Source: Bacillus andreraoultii
GTDB taxonomy: Bacteria > Bacillota > Bacilli > Bacillales > Caldibacillaceae
Length of the DNA: 64,000 nucleotides
NCBI RefSeq assembly: GCF_001244735.1
Contig: NZ_LN868937.1
Span: 2,528,785 to 2,592,784 of the forward strand
Direction of reading: 5' to 3'
The notes under the pieces are model-generated. The model did no database searches. It was not told where the DNA came from and saw only the letters and a list, made by a program, of their open reading frames with translations. This document shows, in pieces, positions 607 through 40,007 of the stretch. The position numbers and the translations under genes were made by a program. Within the stretch, counting starts at the first letter, position 1; each line of letters opens with the position of its first letter.

Positions 607-1299
607 ATGGACCAAGCTTCAATTAAAAAGATTTTACAAAGTTTTCCTTTATTCATAAATCTAGAAGAACATGAATTGGATGCTATTGTAGAATTAGCTC
701 AGATTCGTACTTTTCAAAAAGAAACACACATTTTCTTACAGGGAGAGATTCTTTCCAACGTTTATTTTATATTTGATGGAAAAGTGAAGATTTATCGTCT
801 TGATGCACAGGGGAATGAACAAATTGTGAATGTTCTTAATAAAGGAGCCATGTTTCCACACCAAGGATTTTTCCGAAACGATTCCTATCCAGCAAACGCG
901 GTAGCCTTAGAGAATGCCCTTTTATTCTACATACCGATTCATTCCTTTGAACAGTTTTTAATAAAGAACCCTGTAATCTGCATTAAAATATTTCGCATCT
1001 TAGGTGATCAAATTGTTGATTTACAAAATCGATTAGAGGAAAAAATTTTATACAATACTTATGAACAAATATTACTTCTTATACTCCGGTTAACCAAAAA
1101 TCACGGTGAGAGATTAATTGATACAACCTATCGAATTACAACACAATTTACAAATCGAGACTTAGCTAACATGATTGGTTCTAGCCGTGAAACCATCAGT
1201 CGAACATTTTCCCAATTGAGAAAGAAAAATTTAATCGATACTGATAGCAACGGGTTTTTAATAATTGATACTGACAAACTAAAGGAAGAGCTAATATAA
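607..1299 (+). CDS. Crp/Fnr-family transcriptional regulator
   Basis: The 230-residue protein has an N-terminal cyclic-nucleotide-binding-like beta barrel (about 15-115), a dimerisation helix (about 125-160) and a C-terminal winged helix with the helix-turn-helix at about 181-206. The recognition helix keeps the E-x2-SR signature (E195, S198, R199) used by Crp and Fnr to read TGTGA half-sites, which fits the three such boxes nearby. There is only one cysteine (C125), so an Fnr-type [4Fe-4S] cluster is unlikely. It may instead be a heme or NO-sensing DNR/NnrR-like regulator or act with a small-molecule ligand. Its position between the DUF2249 genes and nirK suggests that it controls this nitrite-reduction locus. 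Start ATG follows GAAGGATAG. Confidence 0.88.
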   Translation: MDQASIKKILQSFPLFINLEEHELDAIVELAQIRTFQKETHIFLQGEILSNVYFIFDGKVKIYRLDAQGNEQIVNVLNKGAMFPHQGFFRNDSYPANAVALENALLFYIPIHSFEQFLIKNPVICIKIFRILGDQIVDLQNRLEEKILYNTYEQILLLILRLTKNHGERLIDTTYRITTQFTNRDLANMIGSSRETISRTFSQLRKKNLIDTDSNGFLIIDTDKLKEELI

Positions 1300-1409: not shown

Positions 1410-1664
1410 ATGGATAATAAGAATATATTTGAATTAGATGTTCGTGAAGATTTACGGCTAAAAAAAGAGCCTTTCGATAAAATAATGAGCGCTGTAAAAC
1501 AATTACAAGATGGACAAGACCTTGTTTTACATGCACCATTCAACCCAGTCCCTCTACATAAAGTACTAGGGCGAAAGGGATTCGACAATCAAGTAGAAAA
1601 GATTGAAAAGAATCATTGGAAAGTAATATACACGAAAAGGGAGGATACGAATGAAAACTCTTGA
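1410..1664 (+). CDS. DUF2249 domain protein
   Basis: This 84-residue protein has the DUF2249 pattern: LDVREDLRLKKEPFDKIM, a central G-x2-LVLHAPFNPVPLHKVL segment, and a terminal HWKVIYTKR strand. It is the first gene of an operon running to 3439. The ATG follows GGAAGGTGATT and the 3' end overlaps the next gene by 14 bp, indicating translational coupling. The function is unknown; the family co-occurs with hemerythrins and denitrification genes, which suggests a role in metal or NO handling. That role is inference. Confidence 0.82.
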   Translation: MDNKNIFELDVREDLRLKKEPFDKIMSAVKQLQDGQDLVLHAPFNPVPLHKVLGRKGFDNQVEKIEKNHWKVIYTKREDTNENS

Positions 1665-1872: not shown

Positions 1873-3117
1873 ATGGTTAGTACAGATTTAAAAACAGATA
1901 CAAACGTAAAACTTCCCGTTAGTTTTATCGTATATGGCCTAATCGCTTTTGTTGCAGCACAGTTCATTTTATTTCTGAACAGTAACGAAGTACTAACTGG
2001 ACAATTTCGCATCCCTCATGTTTGGATGTCTGCACACTTTTTAACGCTTGGCTTTGCAGTTATGACGGCTATGGGTGCGATGTATCAGCTTGTTCCAGTT
2101 GCTTTCCTCACACCAATTTGGAATCAAACATTTGGCTTTTTTCAATTTTTTGTGACAGCCATTGGCGTTACTTTGTTTGCAATTCTTTTAGGTTTCCGAA
2201 CAAATCTAGCTATTTACGGTGGAGCACTTACCATCATTGGTATATTAATGTTTTTATTTCAAATGGCAAAAACAATTTCTATACAAAAAGAAAAGACTAC
2301 GATGACTTATTTTGTCATTGCGGCGTTAATTTGTTTTTTTCTTACAATTGCTGCTGGATTTTTACTAGCTTGGAATTTAGCTTACGGTAGCACTGATTAT
2401 CACGTCAATATACTGTACTCCCATATCACTTTAGGGGTTACTGGATGGTTTACACTGTTAATTTTTGGTTTATCTTACAAATTAGTTCCAATGTTTAGCC
2501 TATCTCATGGGTTTACGATGAAATGGGCAAGACCGGCATATATGGTGTATTTGTTCGGACTAGTTTCCACGATACTTTCTTATTGGGTCAATATCCCAAC
2601 GATTAGTGTTATTGGTTTTTTCTTGTTATTCCTAGGTTTTTGGTTTTTCGCTTTAGATATGAATGAAATCATTTCTAAGAGAATAAAAAAGAAACTAGAT
2701 CAACCGTTCTCTTTTTCATTATTTGCTATCATAAATGGATTAATCGTTCATTTTCTAGCCTTTATCGTTACATTATTTAATATTCATACAGAAAATCTTT
2801 GGTCATGGTTAATCTATCTTTATATAGTAACTTGGATTCTTTTTAGTATTTTGGGTTATTTATATAAGATTGTTCCATTTCTATGGTGGACACATAAATA
2901 TTCGGAAAAGGTTGGCAAAGAAAAAGTACCCACACTTAAAGAGATGATGGATGAAAAATTAGGTGTGACCTTATATTGGCTATTTATTATTAGTACGTTA
3001 GGAATTATAGTAAGTGTTGGTATACAAAGCGGCATTAGTTTATATGTCTTTACAGCAATTATGACGCTTACTTCTATCGTCTATGCATACTCCATCATCA
3101 AAGTTTTATTAAAGTAG
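1873..3117 (+). CDS. Polytopic heme-copper-oxidase-I-like membrane protein
   Basis: This 414-residue integral membrane protein has about 11-12 hydrophobic helices. Histidines sit in conserved-looking contexts at H49/H55 (IPHVWMSAHFLTLGF) and H177/H184 (HVNILYSHITLGVTGW). The motifs YQLVPV, YKLVPMF and YKIVPFLWW follow successive helices. The pattern is that of distant heme-copper oxidase subunit I or NnrS-type proteins, so b-type heme is plausible. The short length and absence of a clear Cu-B/Tyr motif argue against a standard oxidase or NorB. It lies between DUF2249 and DUF59 genes and close to nirK, so a part in nitrite/NO electron transfer or NO tolerance is inferred. The family assignment is tentative; a quinol-oxidising partner of NirK is one possibility. 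Confidence 0.6.
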   Translation: MVSTDLKTDTNVKLPVSFIVYGLIAFVAAQFILFLNSNEVLTGQFRIPHVWMSAHFLTLGFAVMTAMGAMYQLVPVAFLTPIWNQTFGFFQFFVTAIGVTLFAILLGFRTNLAIYGGALTIIGILMFLFQMAKTISIQKEKTTMTYFVIAALICFFLTIAAGFLLAWNLAYGSTDYHVNILYSHITLGVTGWFTLLIFGLSYKLVPMFSLSHGFTMKWARPAYMVYLFGLVSTILSYWVNIPTISVIGFFLLFLGFWFFALDMNEIISKRIKKKLDQPFSFSLFAIINGLIVHFLAFIVTLFNIHTENLWSWLIYLYIVTWILFSILGYLYKIVPFLWWTHKYSEKVGKEKVPTLKEMMDEKLGVTLYWLFIISTLGIIVSVGIQSGISLYVFTAIMTLTSIVYAYSIIKVLLK

Positions 3118-3136: not shown

Positions 3137-3439
3137 ATGACATTAAAAGAACAAATTATTGAAGCACTTCGAGATGTATTAGATCCTGAGCTTGGTATAA
3201 ATATTGTTGATTTAGGACTTGTATATGAAATTGATATTGATGAGGATAAAAACGTTGTAATTAAAATGACTTTAACAACACCAGGTTGTCCAATGCATGA
3301 TAGTATTAGTTTTGGTGTACAAAATCGTCTACATCAAATTGAAGAAATTGGAAATATTGATGTTCAACTAGTATGGGAGCCACGATGGGACCCAAGTCGG
3401 ATGAGCGATCGTGCTAAAGAACTGTTATGGGGAGTATAG
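3137..3439 (+). CDS. DUF59/MIP18-family Fe-S assembly factor
   Basis: This 100-residue protein belongs to the DUF59 (MIP18, SufT/PaaD-like) family. It has the DPELGINIVDLGLVYEI motif at residues 16-32 and the conserved single cysteine in TTPGCPMHD. Such proteins help mature or insert Fe-S clusters and other metal centres in target proteins. It is the last gene of the DUF2249 operon, 19 bp after the membrane-protein gene, with a GCGAAAGGAG ribosome site. It is followed by a strong terminator. The target here may be an anaerobic-respiration enzyme; that is inferred from position. Confidence 0.88.
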   Translation: MTLKEQIIEALRDVLDPELGINIVDLGLVYEIDIDEDKNVVIKMTLTTPGCPMHDSISFGVQNRLHQIEEIGNIDVQLVWEPRWDPSRMSDRAKELLWGV

Positions 3440-3500: not shown

Positions 3501-3526
3501 AAAGCCCTTTATCAAAAGAGCTTTTA
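3501..3526 (-). terminator. Rho-independent terminator of nirK
   Basis: Read on the minus strand, AAAAGCTCTTTTGATAAAGGGCTTTTTTT forms a stem followed by a T run. The hairpin overlaps the nirK stop codon. Confidence 0.7.
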
Positions 3527-4900
3527 AATAACGACTAAAGTGGCAGTCATTTCCGGATGGCCTTGTCCACAGTATACATTACAACGAATTTTATATTCTC
3601 CTCGTTTTGTAGGTGTGAACGAAGCTTGTCCTTGACCTGCTAAATTAACACCTAATCCATCAATAGTAAGACCGTGATAGCCTTCATCACTTGAAAATGA
3701 TATCGTTACTTTCTTTCCAGACTTTACAATAAATTTCTTTTCGTTATATTTAAAGTTTTTGGCTGTAATTTTCAAATTGTTCGATGCAAGCTTCCTATCA
3801 TTTTGATGTTCTGAAGGGCTTGCAACTAATTTTGGAATTTTACCTTCATAAGCGATAATTTTCCCAACTGCTCCTTTTTGCGCATCATTGAATTGGTGTG
3901 TAACAAATTTATATTCCCCCGCTTCTTTCAGCGTAAACTCAACGACAGCACCACCACTTGCGGGAAGTTCAACTGTTTGCATACCTTCCAAATGATTACT
4001 TGGATTTCCGTCCAAATAGACGTCGTCAAACATTGAGCCAATGACATGAAAACTAGACGTTCTATTTGGGCCCATGTTTGCAATATAAAAACGAATTTTC
4101 TCTCCCGCTTTTGCTTGAAAAGGAGTATCGATTAGAGCACCGACCGTCCCATTTGTATTTAGATCACCTTTATGAAGTGCTTTTGTCGAGAAAACGACCT
4201 GTGACGGGTTTCCATTTGTCATATCATCAATATCATTGTATTGGTACCACTCATTTTGAATAACAACAAACTCCCGACTCACTTCTTCGTCTGTCGGATA
4301 ACCACTGTTCGGTTTAACAATAATCATTCCATGCATGCCGTTACCGATATGCAATAGCACTGGATCCGTTCCACAATGGTACATGAATACACCTGGATTT
4401 GATGCTTCATATACGAATGTTCCTTCCTTATTCGGCTCAACATTAGCAAATGCTTTATTTGGAGCCGCATGGACAGCATGGAAGTCCATACTATGTGGCA
4501 TTGCTGGGTCCATATTCTTCAAAGTAAAATGAATTGTATCGCCCTCATTTACAACTAGTAACGGTCCCGGCGCCTGTCCATTAAATGTCCACGCTTTGTA
4601 TTTGTATCCGTCTTTAACTTCAATATCCGTAATTTGTGCTGTCATTTTTATATAAACATCGTGCCCAGAACGCTTTACTTCTGGTTCAGTTGGTTGTTGA
4701 TTTAAATTTTGATGTTCTGGCATTAATTGATTTACTTCGTTACCAGTATCCATCATCATTGTATTCTCGTGATGCGACATATGCATGCCCATACCAGAAC
4801 TCATCGCTAGATTCGTATCTGTCACATTTAAACGAATTAAAGAAAAAATAATTATTAGCCAAAATATTATCAGTGCTGCCCATTTGAATTTATTCGGCAT
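3524..4900 (-). CDS. nirK: Copper nitrite reductase NirK with C-terminal CuA-type domain
   Basis: The 458-residue enzyme reduces nitrite to NO on the outer face of the membrane. An N-terminal membrane anchor (about 7-24) leads to a Met/His-rich linker (33-51) and two cupredoxin domains (about 75-355). Type 1 copper ligands are H136, C176, H184 and M189; type 2 ligands are H141, H175 and H335; the catalytic D139 and H285 are present. Beyond the usual NirK end, residues about 372-458 form a third cupredoxin domain with H409, C440-x3-C444-x3-H448-x2-M451, a complete CuA ligand set as in cytochrome oxidase subunit II. Simple NirKs are about 350 residues. The CuA domain probably feeds electrons to the type 1 centre. 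It is preceded by an FNR-type promoter and is transcribed alone. Confidence 0.93.
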   Translation of the reverse strand: MPNKFKWAALIIFWLIIIFSLIRLNVTDTNLAMSSGMGMHMSHHENTMMMDTGNEVNQLMPEHQNLNQQPTEPEVKRSGHDVYIKMTAQITDIEVKDGYKYKAWTFNGQAPGPLLVVNEGDTIHFTLKNMDPAMPHSMDFHAVHAAPNKAFANVEPNKEGTFVYEASNPGVFMYHCGTDPVLLHIGNGMHGMIIVKPNSGYPTDEEVSREFVVIQNEWYQYNDIDDMTNGNPSQVVFSTKALHKGDLNTNGTVGALIDTPFQAKAGEKIRFYIANMGPNRTSSFHVIGSMFDDVYLDGNPSNHLEGMQTVELPASGGAVVEFTLKEAGEYKFVTHQFNDAQKGAVGKIIAYEGKIPKLVASPSEHQNDRKLASNNLKITAKNFKYNEKKFIVKSGKKVTISFSSDEGYHGLTIDGLGVNLAGQGQASFTPTKRGEYKIRCNVYCGQGHPEMTATLVVI

Positions 4901-4942: not shown

Positions 4943-4985
4943 ATTATAAACGTTTAGTCGTAATTTTTTTGTGATATAAATCACT
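4943..4985 (-). promoter_or_regulatory. FNR-type class II promoter of nirK
   Basis: TGTGATATAAATCACT (4970-4985) is a perfect TGTGA-N6-TCACT box. On the minus strand a consensus TATAAT -10 (4943-4948) begins 29.5 bp from its centre. The predicted transcript starts near 4936, giving a short leader before the ATG at 4900. Confidence 0.78.
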
Positions 4986-7423: not shown

Positions 7424-8119
7424 TTATATTTTTTGTCTTTTATAATTTGATCTTGACCGATATTGCTGCGGTGGTCTAGCTGGATAGCGAATCGGAAAAC
7501 TAAAGATGTGAACAAGCCGAGTGAACGGAATCGACGCAAAAAGAGCAAAGGCCGAAACGATATGAAATTTGAACAAAAACGGAACACCATGCATTAGTTC
7601 ATATTTCGGTTGGAATATAAATAAACTACGGAACCACGGTCCTATTGTTTCACGGTACTCGTATGGGTAGACTGTTAAATTAAATATAATCGTCATGTAA
7701 GTACCTGTTGCAGCGACAAAAAGAACGGCGAGAACTGAAAAATAGTCAGCGAATGTCGCTTTCACCCTTACCGGATCAATTGTAATCTTTCTTATTAATA
7801 GTATAACTAGTCCAACTACTACCATCAGTCCAGCTAATCCACCACCGTAAATTGCTCCAAAATGATAGAGGTGGTCTGGTATACCTAACGCATTATAAAA
7901 CTCTAACGGAATAACGACTCCCATGATGTGACCAATAAAAGCGAAAATAATACCATAGTGGAATAGTGGAGACCCAATTCGCAACCACTTCTTTTCGAAA
8001 AAATTTGTTGAAGGTGCAGCCCAAGTAAGTTGTCTAAAAGCGTAACGATATAATAAACCTACAATCATAATTGTTAAGGTTAAATACGGAAATACTACCC
8101 AAAAAAAGAGATCGGTCAT
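7424..8119 (-). CDS. narI: Respiratory nitrate reductase gamma subunit NarI
   Basis: This 231-residue cytochrome b subunit anchors NarGH to the membrane, oxidises menaquinol and passes electrons through two b hemes to NarH. It has five hydrophobic helices and the four expected heme ligands: H54 and H64 in FHYGIIFAFIGH, and H186 and H204 in the last two helices. It is the last gene of the nar operon, 38 bp after narJ, with a strong GGGAGGTACATGT ribosome site. Confidence 0.95.
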   Translation of the reverse strand: MTDLFFWVVFPYLTLTIMIVGLLYRYAFRQLTWAAPSTNFFEKKWLRIGSPLFHYGIIFAFIGHIMGVVIPLEFYNALGIPDHLYHFGAIYGGGLAGLMVVVGLVILLIRKITIDPVRVKATFADYFSVLAVLFVAATGTYMTIIFNLTVYPYEYRETIGPWFRSLFIFQPKYELMHGVPFLFKFHIVSAFALFASIPFTRLVHIFSFPIRYPARPPQQYRSRSNYKRQKI

Positions 8120-8157
8120 ACATGTACCTCCCTGATGTCATTTGTAAGTTTACCCGA

Positions 8158-8760
8158 TTATTGATACATAATCGGGTATGGTAATTCTTCCAAATCGGCC
8201 TCTTCTCGACCCTTTTCTAATTGTTGCAATTCTTCTTTCGTAGGTTGAGAAAAAACATACTTCATAAGCATTGTAAATACACCAAAATAAGGGTTGTTTT
8301 CAAATAAATTCTCTTTCATATAACTCAATGCAACGCCAATTCTCTTTTTTAATCGTTCAATTTCTGAGTTTTCAGGTGCAACTGTTAGAAACTCAAGCAG
8401 CATCGGTATGTAGTCAGCTAACTCTTCACCTACTCGTTCAAATCCAGCATGATTAATGATTTTTTGTAGTTTTATTAAAGCAGCTCCTCGACGGTTACTA
8501 TCTCCTAACTCATGAGCTGTTAAATAAAGACCTAGTTTTGTTTTTAAATCAAACGTTTCAACATAAAGCTCTTTTAACTGTATATCACTAAAAGTTACGA
8601 ATGGCCTATACATCATTCGAATTTCTTCTTTTACTGTTGATGAAGCGATTGTATGTTGAACAAACTCTTCTACTTCTTCAAGAAGCTCTTTCAATCCTAC
8701 ATCAGGATAATCTAAAAGCCGAGATGCAACGAGGAGAATCGTTCTATGTTCATTATTCAT
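8158..8760 (-). CDS. narJ: Nitrate reductase assembly chaperone NarJ
   Basis: This 200-residue, mostly helical cytoplasmic protein belongs to the NarJ/TorD chaperone family. NarJ binds apo-NarG, helps insert the molybdenum cofactor and controls docking on NarI. Typical features include LLDYPDVGLKELL near the start, YVETFDLK, and YLTAHELGDSNRRG in the central region. It overlaps narH by 4 bp (ATGA), which indicates coupled translation. Confidence 0.94.
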   Translation of the reverse strand: MNNEHRTILLVASRLLDYPDVGLKELLEEVEEFVQHTIASSTVKEEIRMMYRPFVTFSDIQLKELYVETFDLKTKLGLYLTAHELGDSNRRGAALIKLQKIINHAGFERVGEELADYIPMLLEFLTVAPENSEIERLKKRIGVALSYMKENLFENNPYFGVFTMLMKYVFSQPTKEELQQLEKGREEADLEELPYPIMYQ

Positions 8761-10265
8761 TGACTCTCTCTCACTTTCATCATGCCGTATCTTGGGTTCA
8801 TTCCTTCTTTCGGAGCTAGTTCCTCTAAACTACAAGCACCTTGCTTATAAAAGAGGTCATCATCCATTTCTCTTCGACCAGTTGGGATTACGTATCGTTC
8901 TTTGTACTTGGCAACACCTAATAATCGAGCCATTTCCACTACTTCTTCTGGTGTTGTTTCGGCTTCTTTTAATAATTCACTTTGACGGAATTCATCGACA
9001 CCTCCAACTGTTTTTCCACGCATGAAGACACGCATCGCTGTTAATTTTAGCAACACTTTACGTACTACACTCACATCATCTGCAGCTAAAATAGACGCTA
9101 AGTATTCGATTGGAATCCGCATTTGTTCAACGGCTGGAATATAACCATCTGTGTTTAGCTCATCCTCATTTGTTATATGGTTCATAATTGGGCTGAGTGG
9201 AGGCACATACCAAACCATTGGTAATGTTCGATATTCCGGATGAAGTGGTAATGCAATCTTCCACTTCATTGCCATTTTATAAATTGGCGACTCTTTCGCT
9301 GCTTCAATCCACGAATCGTTAATTCCAGCTTCTCTCGCTTTTTCTTGAATTTCCGGGTCAAATGGATCAAGGAAACAAGCAAGCTGGGCTTCATATAAAT
9401 CTTGTGGATCCTCGACTGAAGCGGCCGCTTTTACTTTATCAGCATCATATAAAACAACGCCAATATAACGAATTCGTCCAACACAAGTTTCCGAGCAAAT
9501 GGTTGGCAGTCCTGCTTCAGTTCGTGGATAACAGAAATTACATTTTTCCGCCTTATGTGTATTCCAATTATAGTAAACTTTATGGTATGGACAGCCGTTT
9601 TGACAAAAACGCCAACCACGACATGCATCATGGTCAACTAAGACAATTCCGTCTTCATCGCGTTTATATAGCGCCCCTGTTGGACAGGAAGCGACACAAG
9701 ATGGGTTTAAGCAATGTTCACAGATTCGCGGCAAATACATCATGAACGTTTTTTCATATTCAGCTTTAATATGTTCTTGTAATTTCTCAACGTTCGGGTC
9801 GTTTTTTATATTTTCACTTCCCCCAGCCAAGTCATCATCCCAGTTTGAACCCCATTCTGGTTTATCAATATATTTTCCAGTAATTTGTGAAATTGGCCGT
9901 GCTACCGGTAGATTGTCTCTTTTCGGGCTATGAATTAAGTTGTCATAATCATATGTCCACGGTTCATAAAAATCTTCCATCTCCGCCATATTCGGATTGT
10001 AAAAGATATTTGCGAGTTTCGAGATTGGTCCACCTGCACGTAATTTCAATTTTCCATTTTCTAAAACCCAACCGCCTTTATAACGTTTCGTATCTTCCCA
10101 CCGTTTCGGATAGCCGACACCAGGTCTTGTTTCTACGTTATTAAACCACATATACTCAGTTCCCGGACGATTTGTCCACGTATTTTTACATGTTACCGAA
10201 CAAGTATGGCAACCGATACATTTGTCTAGGTGCATGACCATTGCTACTTGTGCCTTAATTCTCAA
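8757..10265 (-). CDS. narH: Respiratory nitrate reductase beta subunit NarH
   Basis: The 502-residue iron-sulfur subunit carries electrons from NarI to NarG. Four cysteine groups are visible: CIGCHTCSVTC (residues 16-26), CEHCLNPSCVASC, CRGWRFCQNGC and CNFCYPR...CSETC. The third group has Trp in place of one cysteine, giving the expected [3Fe-4S] cluster; the others give three [4Fe-4S] clusters. It overlaps narG by 11 bp and narJ by 4 bp, so subunit synthesis is coupled. Confidence 0.96.
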   Translation of the reverse strand: MRIKAQVAMVMHLDKCIGCHTCSVTCKNTWTNRPGTEYMWFNNVETRPGVGYPKRWEDTKRYKGGWVLENGKLKLRAGGPISKLANIFYNPNMAEMEDFYEPWTYDYDNLIHSPKRDNLPVARPISQITGKYIDKPEWGSNWDDDLAGGSENIKNDPNVEKLQEHIKAEYEKTFMMYLPRICEHCLNPSCVASCPTGALYKRDEDGIVLVDHDACRGWRFCQNGCPYHKVYYNWNTHKAEKCNFCYPRTEAGLPTICSETCVGRIRYIGVVLYDADKVKAAASVEDPQDLYEAQLACFLDPFDPEIQEKAREAGINDSWIEAAKESPIYKMAMKWKIALPLHPEYRTLPMVWYVPPLSPIMNHITNEDELNTDGYIPAVEQMRIPIEYLASILAADDVSVVRKVLLKLTAMRVFMRGKTVGGVDEFRQSELLKEAETTPEEVVEMARLLGVAKYKERYVIPTGRREMDDDLFYKQGACSLEELAPKEGMNPRYGMMKVRESQ

Positions 10266-13200
10266 GCCAATCTACCTCCTTCAACGGTCTAATGATGGCC
10301 ATCGTGTCACGTTGGTGTCCAGTCGGACCATAATAATTGAATCCATAACTTAATTGAGAATATCCTCCTATCATATGGGTCGGCTTTAATGTAATTCGGG
10401 TAATACTATTATGCGTTCCACCTCGTTTTTTGTTAATGGCTGTTCCTGGTACCCCCATCGTCCGGTCTTGTGCATGATACATATAACACATCCCTTTTGG
10501 AATTCGGTAAGTAATGACTGCCCTTGCTGCAACGACCCCATTACGGTTGTATACTTCAATAAAGTCGTTATCCTTTACTCCAATAGAAGCCGCATCTTCT
10601 TCATTCATCCAGACAACTTGCCAGCCTCGGAATAATTGAACCATTGGCGTTGCTTCCGTAAACATTGTGTGAATACCCCATTTTTGGTGAGGAGTTAAAT
10701 AACGTAAAGTAATTGAATTTCCTGTATCTGGCACACCGTGTTCATTTTTTGTAAAAGGTGCTTTTTGTAATGGTGGTAGATACAAAGGAAGACCTTCACC
10801 ACAATCTAAAATCATTTCATGGTCAAGATAAAAACTTTGCCGACCAGTTAACGTACGCCACGGAATATTATATTCCGTATTTACTGTAAACGGTGAATAG
10901 CGTCGTCCGTCTTTTTCTAGTCCACTCCAAATTGGAGTTGATATAGATACACGTGGTTGAATGGTTAAAGCATCTAACGTATAATCCTCTTCCTCACGTG
11001 GTTTTGCAATCTCAGTTAAGTTTTGACCTGTTTTTTCCTCTAATGACTTCCAACCTTCAACGGCACGTTTTCCGTTTGTTGCACCCGACATTAATAAAAT
11101 AGCATTAATCGCTTTTTGATCCGTATATAAATCAGGATGGCCCTTTCCTATACCTTCACGTTGGTTTACGCCAATCCGATCTTTTAACTCGTCATAAACT
11201 TGCTCTCCAGGAATTTTTATTCCTTTACCACCATATCCTTTTCTTAACTCTGGTCCAATTGACGTCATCTTATGGAATACATTCGGATAATCTCGTTTTA
11301 CTATTTTTAGATGAGGCATTGTTTTTCCTGGAATTGCCTCAACTTCTCCTTTTCGCCAATCTTTTATTTTTCCATATTCTTGTGCAATCTCATCTTGTGA
11401 ATCATGTCCGAGTGGACGCATGATAATTTCTTCTGTTTCCGGTAAATATTTTGCTGCTAATTCTGAAAAAACTCTTGCTATTTCACGGAACGTATCCCAG
11501 TCACTTTTCGCTTGCCACGGTGGGCTAATTGCTGCATTAAACGGATGAATAAATGGATGCATATCCGTACTACTAATGTCATACTTTTCATACCATGTAG
11601 CGGCTGGTAATACAATATCAGAGAATAAACCTGAACTTGTCATCCGAAAGTCGATGCTTACAAATAAATCCGCTTTACCTTCTGGTGCTTCATCGGAAAC
11701 ATTAACTGTCTCTGGTTGCCAACAGTTCTCTGGTTCAGATAGTACTTGGTTTTCGCCACCGATAAAATGTTTAGCAAAATATTCATGACCTTTACCACTA
11801 TCTCCTAAAAGGTTTGAACGCCAATTGAAAAAGACACGTGGGAAATTTCGTGGATCATTTGGATTTTCAATCGCCCATTCGATTTCTCCATCTATTATTT
11901 TCTTAACAACTTGATCAATAATTTCCTGTTCAGACTTTGCTCCATTTTCTCGAGCCTCTTTAACAATATCAATCGAGTTTTGCGAGAACTGTGGGAAAGA
12001 TGGCAACCAACCAAGCCTGGCTGAGAGTGCATTTACATCTGCCGGGTGCATATACGTATATTTTCCATTCCACCGGTTTTGCTTCATATTTTCTTTTGTT
12101 TCATAGCGGAATTGTTCTGTTGCAAAATAAAAGAAAGAAGTTCCATTTTGTAATCTTGGCGCTACACCCCAATCACTTGCAAACGAAACTACATTCCAAC
12201 CTTCTGATGGACGCACCTTTTCCTGACCAACATAATGAGCCCAACCGCCGCCATTCACACCTTGTGAGCCAGTTAAAAGAACGAGGTTTAATATAGAACG
12301 ATAAATTTGATCACTATGATGCCAATGGTTTGTACCTCCACCCATAGCAATCATTGATTTCCCTTTTGTTCTTGCTGCATTATCGGCGAATTCTTTAGCC
12401 ACTTGAATGACATGGTTCCGATGTACACCTGTAATACTTTCTTGCCATGCAGGTGTGTATGGACTTAGATCATCATAATCTTTTGGATAGTCACCTGGCA
12501 AACCACGGTTCACACCAACATGAGCCATCATTAAATCGTATACTGTTGTGATTTTTATCGTATGGCCGTTTGTATCTTCTATATGTTTTACAGGAACACT
12601 ACGCCTAATAACTCCGCCTTCTTCTTCAGCAAAATAAGGAAATGTTACTTCGACAACTTCATCCGAATGATTTAGAAAACTTAATTGCGGATTAATTTCT
12701 GTCCCATCTTCCTTCTTCAATTCAAGATTCCATTTACTGTCATCATCCCACCGGAATCCTTGACTGCCATTAGGTATTTCCATTTTATTTGCGTCTTCAT
12801 CCCAAACAACGGTCTTCCATTCGGCTAATTTTTGTTTATCACTAATATCAGATGCTCGTAAAAAATTGTCTGTACGATATTCATTTCCGGTTTGTTTTAA
12901 CGTAACTAAAAACGGTAAATCGGTAAACCGTTTAACATAATCGATAAAATAAGGGATTTGTTGTTTCACATAAAATTCATTCAATATAACATGGGTCATC
13001 GCCATGGCAAGGGCACCGTCTGTCCCTGCACGTGCCGGTAACCATATGTCAGCAAACTTATCATACTCTGCATAGTCTGGACTCACTCCAACTACTTTTG
13101 TCCCGTTATATCTCGCTTCGACCATAAAATGTGCGTCTGGTGTGCGTGTTTGTGGTAAATTTGTACCCCAAATAATAAAATATTTTGCATTGTACCAATC

Positions 13201-13935
13201 TGCACTTTCTGGTACATCTGTTTGTTCACCCCATACTTGCGGGGAAGCAGGAGGTAAGTCGGCATACCAATCGTAGAAACTTAATATTGTCGCACCTATT
13301 AATGAAAGAAAACGGGCCCCACCAGCATAACTTACCATCGACATCGCAGGAATCGGACTAAAACCAGCTACTCGATCTGGTCCGTATTTTTTAATTGTAT
13401 AAATAATCGAACTTGAAATAAGTTCACATAATTCTTTCCAATCAGCTCGGACAAAGCCACCTTTACCACGTGTTTTTACATATTTATTTCTTTTTTGTGG
13501 ATTAGTAACAATGTTTTCCCATGCTTTTATTGGATTCTCTTCGACACTTCGTTCAGCTTTCCACAATTCATATAGATCTGAACGGACATAGGGATATTTC
13601 ACACGTGCTGGACTATATGTATACCAAGAAAATGATGCGCCACGAGGACAGCCTCTTGGTTCATATTCTGGATAATCGTCTCCTGTTGAAGGGTAATCTG
13701 TTTGTTGTGTTTCAGATGTAATAATTCCATCCTTCACATAGATCTTCCAACTACATGATCCTGTACAGTTTACTCCATGAGTGGAGCGAACTATTTTATC
13801 GTGTTGCCATCTCCGTCTATAAATTTCCTCAGCATCTCTTGACCTTGGACTTTCTTCTGTCCAACCTTTATTTATGACATTTCCACGACGAAGATGTTTA
13901 AAATGGTCAAACAATTTATTTTTTTGTTTAGCCAC
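10255..13935 (-). CDS. narG: Respiratory nitrate reductase alpha subunit NarG
   Basis: The 1226-residue catalytic subunit reduces nitrate to nitrite at a Mo-bis-MGD centre in the cytoplasm. The FS0 cluster ligands H53-x3-C57-x3-C61-x34-C96 are present. D226, in YADLPPASPQVWGEQTDVPE, matches the Asp ligand of molybdenum (E. coli D222). There is no twin-arginine signal, so the enzyme faces inward. The start overlaps the upstream small gene by 8 bp. The length is that of Bacillus NarG. It is the fourth gene of an operon that begins with a hemerythrin gene. Confidence 0.97.
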   Translation of the reverse strand: MAKQKNKLFDHFKHLRRGNVINKGWTEESPRSRDAEEIYRRRWQHDKIVRSTHGVNCTGSCSWKIYVKDGIITSETQQTDYPSTGDDYPEYEPRGCPRGASFSWYTYSPARVKYPYVRSDLYELWKAERSVEENPIKAWENIVTNPQKRNKYVKTRGKGGFVRADWKELCELISSSIIYTIKKYGPDRVAGFSPIPAMSMVSYAGGARFLSLIGATILSFYDWYADLPPASPQVWGEQTDVPESADWYNAKYFIIWGTNLPQTRTPDAHFMVEARYNGTKVVGVSPDYAEYDKFADIWLPARAGTDGALAMAMTHVILNEFYVKQQIPYFIDYVKRFTDLPFLVTLKQTGNEYRTDNFLRASDISDKQKLAEWKTVVWDEDANKMEIPNGSQGFRWDDDSKWNLELKKEDGTEINPQLSFLNHSDEVVEVTFPYFAEEEGGVIRRSVPVKHIEDTNGHTIKITTVYDLMMAHVGVNRGLPGDYPKDYDDLSPYTPAWQESITGVHRNHVIQVAKEFADNAARTKGKSMIAMGGGTNHWHHSDQIYRSILNLVLLTGSQGVNGGGWAHYVGQEKVRPSEGWNVVSFASDWGVAPRLQNGTSFFYFATEQFRYETKENMKQNRWNGKYTYMHPADVNALSARLGWLPSFPQFSQNSIDIVKEARENGAKSEQEIIDQVVKKIIDGEIEWAIENPNDPRNFPRVFFNWRSNLLGDSGKGHEYFAKHFIGGENQVLSEPENCWQPETVNVSDEAPEGKADLFVSIDFRMTSSGLFSDIVLPAATWYEKYDISSTDMHPFIHPFNAAISPPWQAKSDWDTFREIARVFSELAAKYLPETEEIIMRPLGHDSQDEIAQEYGKIKDWRKGEVEAIPGKTMPHLKIVKRDYPNVFHKMTSIGPELRKGYGGKGIKIPGEQVYDELKDRIGVNQREGIGKGHPDLYTDQKAINAILLMSGATNGKRAVEGWKSLEEKTGQNLTEIAKPREEEDYTLDALTIQPRVSISTPIWSGLEKDGRRYSPFTVNTEYNIPWRTLTGRQSFYLDHEMILDCGEGLPLYLPPLQKAPFTKNEHGVPDTGNSITLRYLTPHQKWGIHTMFTEATPMVQLFRGWQVVWMNEEDAASIGVKDNDFIEVYNRNGVVAARAVITYRIPKGMCYMYHAQDRTMGVPGTAINKKRGGTHNSITRITLKPTHMIGGYSQLSYGFNYYGPTGHQRDTMAIIRPLKEVDWLEN

Positions 13936-38345: not shown

Positions 38346-40007
38346 ATGTTTAAACATTATAACATGAATCAAGTAGTTTTACCGCTAAATTTAGAAATTA
38401 AGTTGAAAGAAAACGATATTGCTTTTGCGATCAATGATCTTGTCGAGAGTATTCCCGAAGAAGCTTTCGAGGACTTCATACGACAAACCGGCCGTCCCGC
38501 GTATCATCCTCGTATGATGTTGAAAGTCATTTTGTGTGGATATACGCAATCCGTGTTTTCCGGCCGTAAAATAGAAGCTTTATTACAGGATAGTATCCGC
38601 ATGATGTGGCTAGCTCAAGGACATGAACCTAGCTATCGCACCATCAATCGCTTCCGTTCTAATCCACTCATTGAAAACATCCTACGTGAATGCTTTGTCC
38701 AGTTCCGAAATCAGCTCGTGGAAAAGGAATTGATTGAAGAGGAAGCCATTTTTATTGATGGTACAAAAATTGAAGCAAACGCAAATAAGTTCACCTTTGT
38801 ATGGCGGAAGTCCATTGAAAGATATAGTGATAAGCTAATTGAAAAGTCCAATCAACTGTATGATGAGCTGCTAGAGAAGGAGATCATCCCAGCAATAGAG
38901 CGAGAAAAGGAAGAGGAACTTTCCGTCAAAGAAATGGAAGAAGTAGTCGAAAAGTTAGACGAGAAAATCGAGGAATATAATAAAAAGATTGAAGTATCTG
39001 AAGTTGGGAGTGAACGGAAAAAGCTCCGTTCCGAACGCAAATTACCCATACAATCTCGGAAGCAATGGATGGATTTCATTACTCGCATACAAAAGTATCA
39101 AAACGATATGGAGATTTTCGGTGATCGCAATAGTTACTCAAAGACGGACCCAGATGCGACGTTTATGCGCATGAAGGACGACTACATGAAGAACGGTCAA
39201 TTGAAAGCTGGTTACAATGTCCAAATTGCGACGGAAGGTCAATATGTGCTCGCTTACGATGTTTTCCCAAACCCGACCGATACACGCACTTTAATTCCTT
39301 TTCTCGACACGATTGAAGAAAACTTTTTCGAGCTTCCGGAATTCATTGTCGCGGATGCAGGATATGGTAGCGAACAGAATTATGAAGATATCATCGAGAA
39401 TCGAAATCGAACGCCACTTATTACATACAATCAATATCGAAAGGAGAAGAAAAAGAAGCATAAGGACAACGCTTTTCATGTAGATAATTGGGAATATAAT
39501 GAGGACGAAGATACTTTTCTGTGCCCAAATGGTCGGAAAGTACGATTTAGCCATCATTCCAAACGAACAGACAGGTACGGATTCACCCGTGAATTTAAAG
39601 TGTACGAGTGTGAGGACTGTTCGGATTGTCCACTCCGCGATTTATGCACGAAAGCAAAAGAAGGGAACAACCGAAAAGTCTACATGAATGAAAAGTGGGA
39701 GTCCCAAAAAGAATATGTACGTACGAAGCTTTCAGACGAGAAAACTGGTGAAATTTACGGAAAACGTAAAATTGATGTAGAACCAGCGTTCGGTTTTCTG
39801 AAGGCTAATTTAGGTTTCACTCGTTTTTCCGTCAGAGGAAAACAGAAAGTGAAAAATGAATTAGCCTTTGCGTTGATGGCGGTGAATATGAGAAAAGTCA
39901 CCGCCATCAGCGGTAAAATAGTGACGAGAAATGGAAAAACCCCACAAAAAAGGTTCCAAGCAAATTTTTTATTGCCTGGAACCTTTTTATATACTACTTT
40001 TGGCTAG
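38346..40007 (+). CDS. IS1182-family transposase
   Basis: The 553-residue DDE transposase appears intact. An N-terminal DUF772-like domain (RPAYHPRMMLKVILCGY, SYRTINRFR) is followed by the first catalytic Asp in FIDGTKIEANANKFTF, a charged coiled-coil insertion (about 155-225), the second Asp in VADAGYGSEQNYE, a Cys-rich finger (CEDCSDCPLRDLC) and the catalytic Glu in DVEPAFGFLKANLGFTRF. It follows GGAGGTG, and the reading frame has no breaks, so the element may be active. Confidence 0.94.
   Translation: MFKHYNMNQVVLPLNLEIKLKENDIAFAINDLVESIPEEAFEDFIRQTGRPAYHPRMMLKVILCGYTQSVFSGRKIEALLQDSIRMMWLAQGHEPSYRTINRFRSNPLIENILRECFVQFRNQLVEKELIEEEAIFIDGTKIEANANKFTFVWRKSIERYSDKLIEKSNQLYDELLEKEIIPAIEREKEEELSVKEMEEVVEKLDEKIEEYNKKIEVSEVGSERKKLRSERKLPIQSRKQWMDFITRIQKYQNDMEIFGDRNSYSKTDPDATFMRMKDDYMKNGQLKAGYNVQIATEGQYVLAYDVFPNPTDTRTLIPFLDTIEENFFELPEFIVADAGYGSEQNYEDIIENRNRTPLITYNQYRKEKKKKHKDNAFHVDNWEYNEDEDTFLCPNGRKVRFSHHSKRTDRYGFTREFKVYECEDCSDCPLRDLCTKAKEGNNRKVYMNEKWESQKEYVRTKLSDEKTGEIYGKRKIDVEPAFGFLKANLGFTRFSVRGKQKVKNELAFALMAVNMRKVTAISGKIVTRNGKTPQKRFQANFLLPGTFLYTTFG
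39946..39988 (+). terminator. Terminator overlapping the 3' end of the transposase gene
   Basis: AAAAAAGGTTCC/GGAACCTTTTT forms a long stem within the last codons of the transposase gene, followed by ATATA. Confidence 0.65.

Follow-up and report, generated by a model that had tools for sequence, protein, structure and literature searches.

A gene in the 64,000-nucleotide stretch of Bacillus andreraoultii DNA analyzed here (the window) raises the question of whether a copper nitrite reductase (NirK) can carry a CuA-type domain of its own and, if so, whether electrons enter the enzyme through it. The tethered NirKs known so far carry haem c (RpNiR, PhNiR) or type 1 copper (HdNiR, TsNirK) (PMC6400189, PMC7201279, PMC13324648), and the protein of the window departs from these described class III NirKs in having the two-cysteine ligand set of CuA instead. 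The original prediction, made from the letters of the window, had proposed such a fusion, with a route from a membrane cytochrome or quinol-linked donor to CuA and on to the type 1 (T1Cu) and type 2 (T2Cu) coppers. The fusion is a real and apparently unreported variant of tethered NirK; no description of CuA on NirK was found in the open-access literature, an earlier mention elsewhere being possible.

The fusion gene and its neighborhood

The features of the locus are provided in Table 1. The nirK-CuA gene was correctly located by the original prediction, whose residue numbers were also exact. It comprises 458 codons from an ATG on the minus strand, in an unbroken frame preceded by a probable ribosome-binding site, and the plus strand across the same positions contains many stops. 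An assembly or frameshift artefact was ruled out by the intact frame together with the occurrence of the same fusion in a second, independent genome (69% identity over residues 10-457). The proposed membrane anchor was also found, as a single hydrophobic segment at the N-terminus, where the AlphaFold2 model has a helix (residues 4-33); the sequence has no lipobox cysteine there, and alignment revealed a lipobox in place of the plain anchor in most other Bacillales NirKs. The Met/His-rich stretch described as a linker does exist, but it follows the anchor and precedes the NirK core instead of joining NirK to CuA. In the second fusion, HHHHHH occupies roughly this position.

A motif search upstream of the gene located an FNR/NNR-type box whose center is about 41.5 bp before the transcription start expected from TATAAT at 4948-4943, a placement that fits an FNR-activated promoter. 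The gene of the second fusion, in genome G005, has a perfect FNR-type box upstream. Given that a terminator-like hairpin lies right past the stop codon, the CuA part is the end of what is likely a single-gene transcript. The plus-strand cluster coding for the Crp/Fnr, DUF2249, NnrS-like and MIP18-type proteins ends facing nirK-CuA, and a NarK-like MFS transporter is encoded in the window as well. At locus L149 (12649-15081), the genes for the DUF2249 protein and the Crp/Fnr regulator occur twice in tandem, about 1.3 kb apart and identical where compared; the second copy of the pair corresponds to about 185-1299 of the window and the first lies just to its left. The window also contains, in a stretch of higher GC, a transposase-like ORF of 553 aa (38346-40007, plus strand).

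Table 1. Predicted features around the nirK-CuA gene, in coordinates of the window.
Feature	Position	Strand	Evidence or remark
Crp/Fnr-family regulator	607..1299	+	FNR-type box upstream, 477-492
DUF2249 protein, first gene of the linked cluster	1410..1664	+	Perfect FNR-type box, 1337-1352
NnrS-like multi-span membrane protein	1873..3117	+	Weak COX1 match; conserved near nirK in Paenibacillaceae
MIP18/SufT-type Fe-S assembly protein	3137..3439	+	Convergent with nirK-CuA
Terminator-like hairpin, directly past the nirK-CuA stop codon	3500..3525	-	Sequence
nirK-CuA fusion gene, 458 aa	3524..4900	-	Anchor, Met/His-rich segment, two-domain NirK core, linker, CuA domain
CuA-type cupredoxin domain, residues 374-458	3527..3781	-	Ligands H409, C440, C444, H448, M451
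Linker, residues 351-373	3782..3850	-	Low model confidence; low identity between the two fusions
NirK core, residues 62-350	3851..4717	-	All T1Cu, T2Cu and catalytic residues; model TMt 0.95 to 3wi9
Met/His-rich segment, residues 33-51	4748..4804	-	Sequence
N-terminal hydrophobic anchor, residues ~8-24	4829..4879	-	Sequence; AlphaFold2 helix
FNR/NNR-type box AGTGATTTATATCACA	4970..4985	-	Motif search upstream of nirK-CuA
narGHJI nitrate reductase operon	7424..13935	-	Read from translated sequence

The NirK core and the CuA-type domain

The claim of a complete two-domain NirK was borne out by alignment, in which every ligand of T1Cu (H136, C176, H184 and M189) and T2Cu (H141, H175 and H335) is present together with the catalytic residues Asp-CAT D139 and His-CAT H285. 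The best solved relative of the core is Geobacillus NirK 3x1e (E 5e-138). The TIGR02376 score of the protein (192.9) is below the cut-off of 296.3, and that of the second fusion is likewise below it. As judged from the aligned residues, positions 62-350 are a complete Bacillales-type NirK.

When searched alone, the C-terminal 105 residues matched the CuA domain of Thermus thermophilus ba3 oxidase (2lln, 2cua; E 5e-9), far beyond what chance would give, and then that of NosZ. The full CuA ligand set claimed for the extension aligns residue by residue with solved CuA sites in the search alignment (H409, C440, C444, H448 and M451) and is kept in the second fusion. The resulting motif is H-x30-C-x3-C-x3-H-x2-M, and that published for oxidases is H-x34-C-x-E-x-C-x3-H-x2-M (PMC9145763). 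Val442 is found between the cysteines, where oxidases have Glu, and Ile or Val is usual at this place among related CuA homologues. The oxidase Glu binds copper through its backbone carbonyl in known sites. H409 was invariant in all 54 aligned homologues; these had been picked by C-x3-C-x3-H-x2-M, so the invariance of that motif is by construction and only H409 is an independent test. For the motif itself, the independent evidence comes from its register with the solved CuA sites and from the second fusion.

A domain model was obtained by running AlphaFold2 on residues 366-458 with an alignment of 12 CuA homologues from the fetched loci (pLDDT 90, pTM 0.79). It has a cupredoxin fold, in agreement with the third cupredoxin domain that had been proposed for residues 372-458, and superposes on 2cua with a VIA-align Z of 12.9 and 1.1 Å over 85 residues; its top Foldseek matches in the PDB were engineered and native ba3 CuA domains and NosZ. 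The single highest VIA-align Z was that of Escherichia coli bo3 subunit II, which has a CuA-type fold without the copper site. Therefore, the fold alone is no proof of copper, and it is the ligand residues that decide. In the full-length model, built with no CuA homologues in the alignment, the core was confident, parts of the CuA domain were of low confidence and the linker was disordered, with pLDDT below 50 at residues 360-374. This model is a monomer and says nothing on the distance between CuA and T1Cu; the low confidence of its placement of the CuA domain counts against electron entry through that domain.

The scores of the oxidase subunit II families were under their cut-offs (COX2, 14.7 against 22; CoxB, 27.9 against 147.7), and no partner subunit I gene was found beside the fusion gene. 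Identification of the domain as COX II or NOR subunit II was excluded by the gene context and by the CuA tree, in which oxidase-type subunits lie outside the lipoprotein/NirK group, and a single type 1 copper domain was excluded by the two cysteines at CuA spacing. On the alignment and the models, residues from about 374 to 458 are a CuA-type cupredoxin, with putative binding of binuclear copper.

Distribution of fused and free CuA domains

The search for NirK homologues with the extension yielded one other protein, of 449 aa and the same layout, in G005, which belongs to another genus of the same eight-genome family. The identity between both fusions is 80% in the core, 54% in the CuA domain and 37% in the linker; despite the 54%, all the ligands and the CNVYCGxGHxxM loop are retained. 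Among the matches listed for 397 genomes from the order, 399 from the class and 398 from the phylum there was no further fusion, and every other NirK with an identity of 50% or more in the core stops near residue 350, in many cases with -SH or -GH. The CuA tail was absent from the odd long frames in G605, G419, G849, G1117 and G935, a check that left out the NirK ORF of G637; the 686-aa proteins of G393 and G373 were assigned to NosZ by their length and sequence only. The NirK tree places the two fusions as sisters (SH-aLRT 97), nested in an Oceanobacillus-type clade of unfused NirKs, and therefore the fusion is derived and most simply explained by a single event. Oceanobacillus-type genomes have nirK adjoining the genes of a CuA subunit II and a heme-copper subunit I (L003 4342-6366, L155 7674-9692, L157 8530-10538). 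In one genome (G248), two copies of nirK, separated by about 4 kb (L155 250-1407 and 5327-6418), flank nosD/F/Y/L-like genes.

Free CuA proteins of about 120-150 aa, mostly lipobox-bearing, are common in Bacillales, and 130 of the 397 genomes of the order gave matches to the fused domain at E 1e-8, oxidase-type subunits included. Co-occurrence of nirK and a free CuA gene in these 397 genomes was weakly enriched by hand count, a figure confounded by kinship. The fused domains fall among the lipoproteins in the CuA tree (95 columns), outside the oxidase subunit II group, the tree being short and its fine detail weak. The nearer free copies are 42-56% identical to the fused domain and those in nirK clusters about 30%; direct derivation from the nirK-linked lipoprotein of Paenibacillaceae is unsupported, as the tree does not join them. 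The small lipoproteins with CuA ligands (e.g., L198 4927-5322, L240 4760-5188) include some that are encoded near likely copper-export genes. A lipoprotein of about 285 aa with a C-terminal CuA domain and a further domain at its N-terminus was also observed (L092 1498-2367, L204 4715-5557), one being in the window's own family; that of L204 is followed by a 500-aa lipoprotein without strong family match.

The typical gene order in Paenibacillaceae is nirK, DUF2249, NnrS-like and MIP18, followed by a convergent CuA lipoprotein gene. By tblastn, at least 12 of the 19 nirK loci of Paenibacillaceae contain a separate CuA lipoprotein gene; at one of them (L029) it is about 4 kb further away, and one of the seven loci without a match is cut near that place by a contig end. 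The product has about 125 aa and its gene lies about 2.3 kb past nirK (e.g., L021 11447-11812, L024 11434-11811, L017 11286-11663); no description of it was found in the open-access literature. A TGTGA-N6-TCACA box with 0-1 mismatches precedes the CuA start by 58-81 bp in all 11 copies tested, and such a box was found for nirK in 10 of the 10 loci tested. It was present in 7 of 138 control ORFs of the same loci, several of which run antisense to nirK or diverge from it, and no FNR-type box was found upstream of the six orphan CuA lipoprotein genes. These loci are related and are thus not independent events. The separate, FNR-boxed CuA gene in nirK loci points to CuA as a likely cognate partner that has become a tether of NirK in the fusion.

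Possible role of the third domain and comparison with known systems

We consider it probable, from the sequence and the models, that the protein is a membrane-anchored three-domain NirK in which the third domain serves as a CuA module for electron transfer, fed by cytochrome c. This role, which we infer, is strengthened by the finding that FNR-boxed nirK clusters in Paenibacillaceae include a CuA lipoprotein gene of their own. CuA and T1Cu are normally similar in potential and CuA normally takes its electrons from cytochrome c, so the path proposed is plausible. Encoded in the genome are the cytochromes c550 and c551, a complex of the bc type (Qcr, assigned by gene order), a CuA-bearing caa3 oxidase, two enzymes of the quinol oxidase type, homologues of Sco and a qNor-like protein of 786 aa, which was assigned by its length, its sequence and a match to COX1. 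No free CuA protein was found in this genome apart from the caa3 subunit, and no NosZ reached the cut-off, from which N2O would be the expected end product.

Nitrite would be supplied by narGHJI, and the bc complex, acting as a menaquinol:cytochrome c reductase, would reduce a membrane cytochrome c (c550/c551). CuA, with two coppers bound, would accept the electrons from this cytochrome and pass them to T1Cu of the same or a neighboring subunit of the trimer and from there to T2Cu, where nitrite would be converted to NO, which would then go to the qNor-like enzyme. The advantage would lie in having the donor site attached to NirK where cells lack a pool of free periplasmic cupredoxin. Between the two donors considered originally, membrane cytochrome c is the more likely, nothing having pointed to a direct quinol donor. 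Several observations count against electron entry at CuA: most Bacillales NirKs lack the domain and manage without it, divergence is more rapid in the CuA part than in the core, and its nearest free relatives are not beside nirK and are devoid of FNR boxes.

The main rival is that the domain binds copper in order to load or protect the copper sites of NirK, as a chaperone or a store, since similar cupredoxins such as CupA do that. CupA of Streptococcus pneumoniae is a membrane chaperone with a cupredoxin-like fold and a binuclear, exchangeable Cu(I) site (PMC3817396), and the fold of the domain also resembles it and the Cupredoxin_1 protein of Bacillus anthracis; the location of some free homologues near likely copper-export genes and the Met/His-rich segment of the fusion point in the same direction. 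However, we regard this role as unlikely, given that the complete CuA ligand set is retained, that the domain is closer to ba3-type CuA (26-31% identity, about 1.1 Å) than to CupA and the B. anthracis protein (15-16%, 1.6-2.3 Å), and that the FNR-type boxes tie the Paenibacillaceae gene to nitrite respiration and not to copper stress.

Retention of all five ligands would not be needed if CuA were a docking module that kept NirK close to a respiratory complex (bc-type, caa3 or NOR), with NO arising next to the enzyme that consumes it and electron transfer being secondary. Respiratory supercomplexes are known in Bacillus (PMC9145763) and a CuA-bearing heme-copper enzyme gene adjoins nirK in the Oceanobacillus-type relatives, but neither fused genome has such a gene beside nirK, and the proposal seems quite improbable. 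We give even less credence to the extension being a low-function relic, a passenger of the gene fusion: its restriction to two genomes of one family among the matches listed and its faster divergence would fit, but the second fusion has kept every ligand and the loop through that divergence.

If CuA is the electron entry, as we favor, this would be the first known NirK with a CuA center and a natural construct for CuA-to-T1Cu electron transfer. A 2012 study of the Bacillus azotoformans and B. bataviensis genomes reported no pseudoazurin or cupredoxin donor and no gene-context clue (PMC3475470). The CuA tether and the FNR-boxed CuA lipoprotein provide a named and simply testable candidate for the NirK donor in Bacillus-type denitrifiers, and the NO of the nitrite step feeds N2O emission. 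More tentatively, CuA proteins might be dedicated NirK electron carriers in several Gram-positive denitrifiers, lipid-anchored in Paenibacillaceae and fused here. If true, CuA would stand in for the pseudoazurins and soluble cytochromes that Gram-negative bacteria use, in a CuA-T1Cu-T2Cu wire previously undescribed.

With regard to known systems, the core is like that of Geobacillus NirK (3wi9, 3x1e; about 68% identical), a predicted lipoprotein that has two domains only and ends at about residue 352 of the fusion. The closest sequence relatives of the third domain, the CuA lipoproteins of Bacillales and Paenibacillaceae, are separate lipid-anchored proteins, unlike the fused domain. HdNiR of Hyphomicrobium denitrificans also has an extra cupredoxin domain, but it is N-terminal, contains type 1 copper and lies about 24 Å from the core T1Cu; its role is disputed (PMC7201279), which counts against the electron-entry reading. 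RpNiR and PhNiR resemble the fusion in having a C-terminal donor domain joined by a linker (36 residues in RpNiR, about 23 here), their donor being haem c and not copper. As in the fusion, TsNirK of Thermus scotoductus (PDB 6hbe, PMC6400189) has a C-terminal cupredoxin tethered to a two-domain core, only distantly related to ours (27% over the whole model); this third domain is thought to feed the core T1Cu and holds mononuclear type 1 copper, in contrast to the two-cysteine CuA set found here. Finally, T. thermophilus ba3 subunit II and the CuA domain of NosZ share with the fused domain the fold and the H...C-x3-C-x3-H-x2-M set, whereas the latter is joined to a nitrite reductase, without an oxidase subunit I partner or a catalytic CuZ domain.
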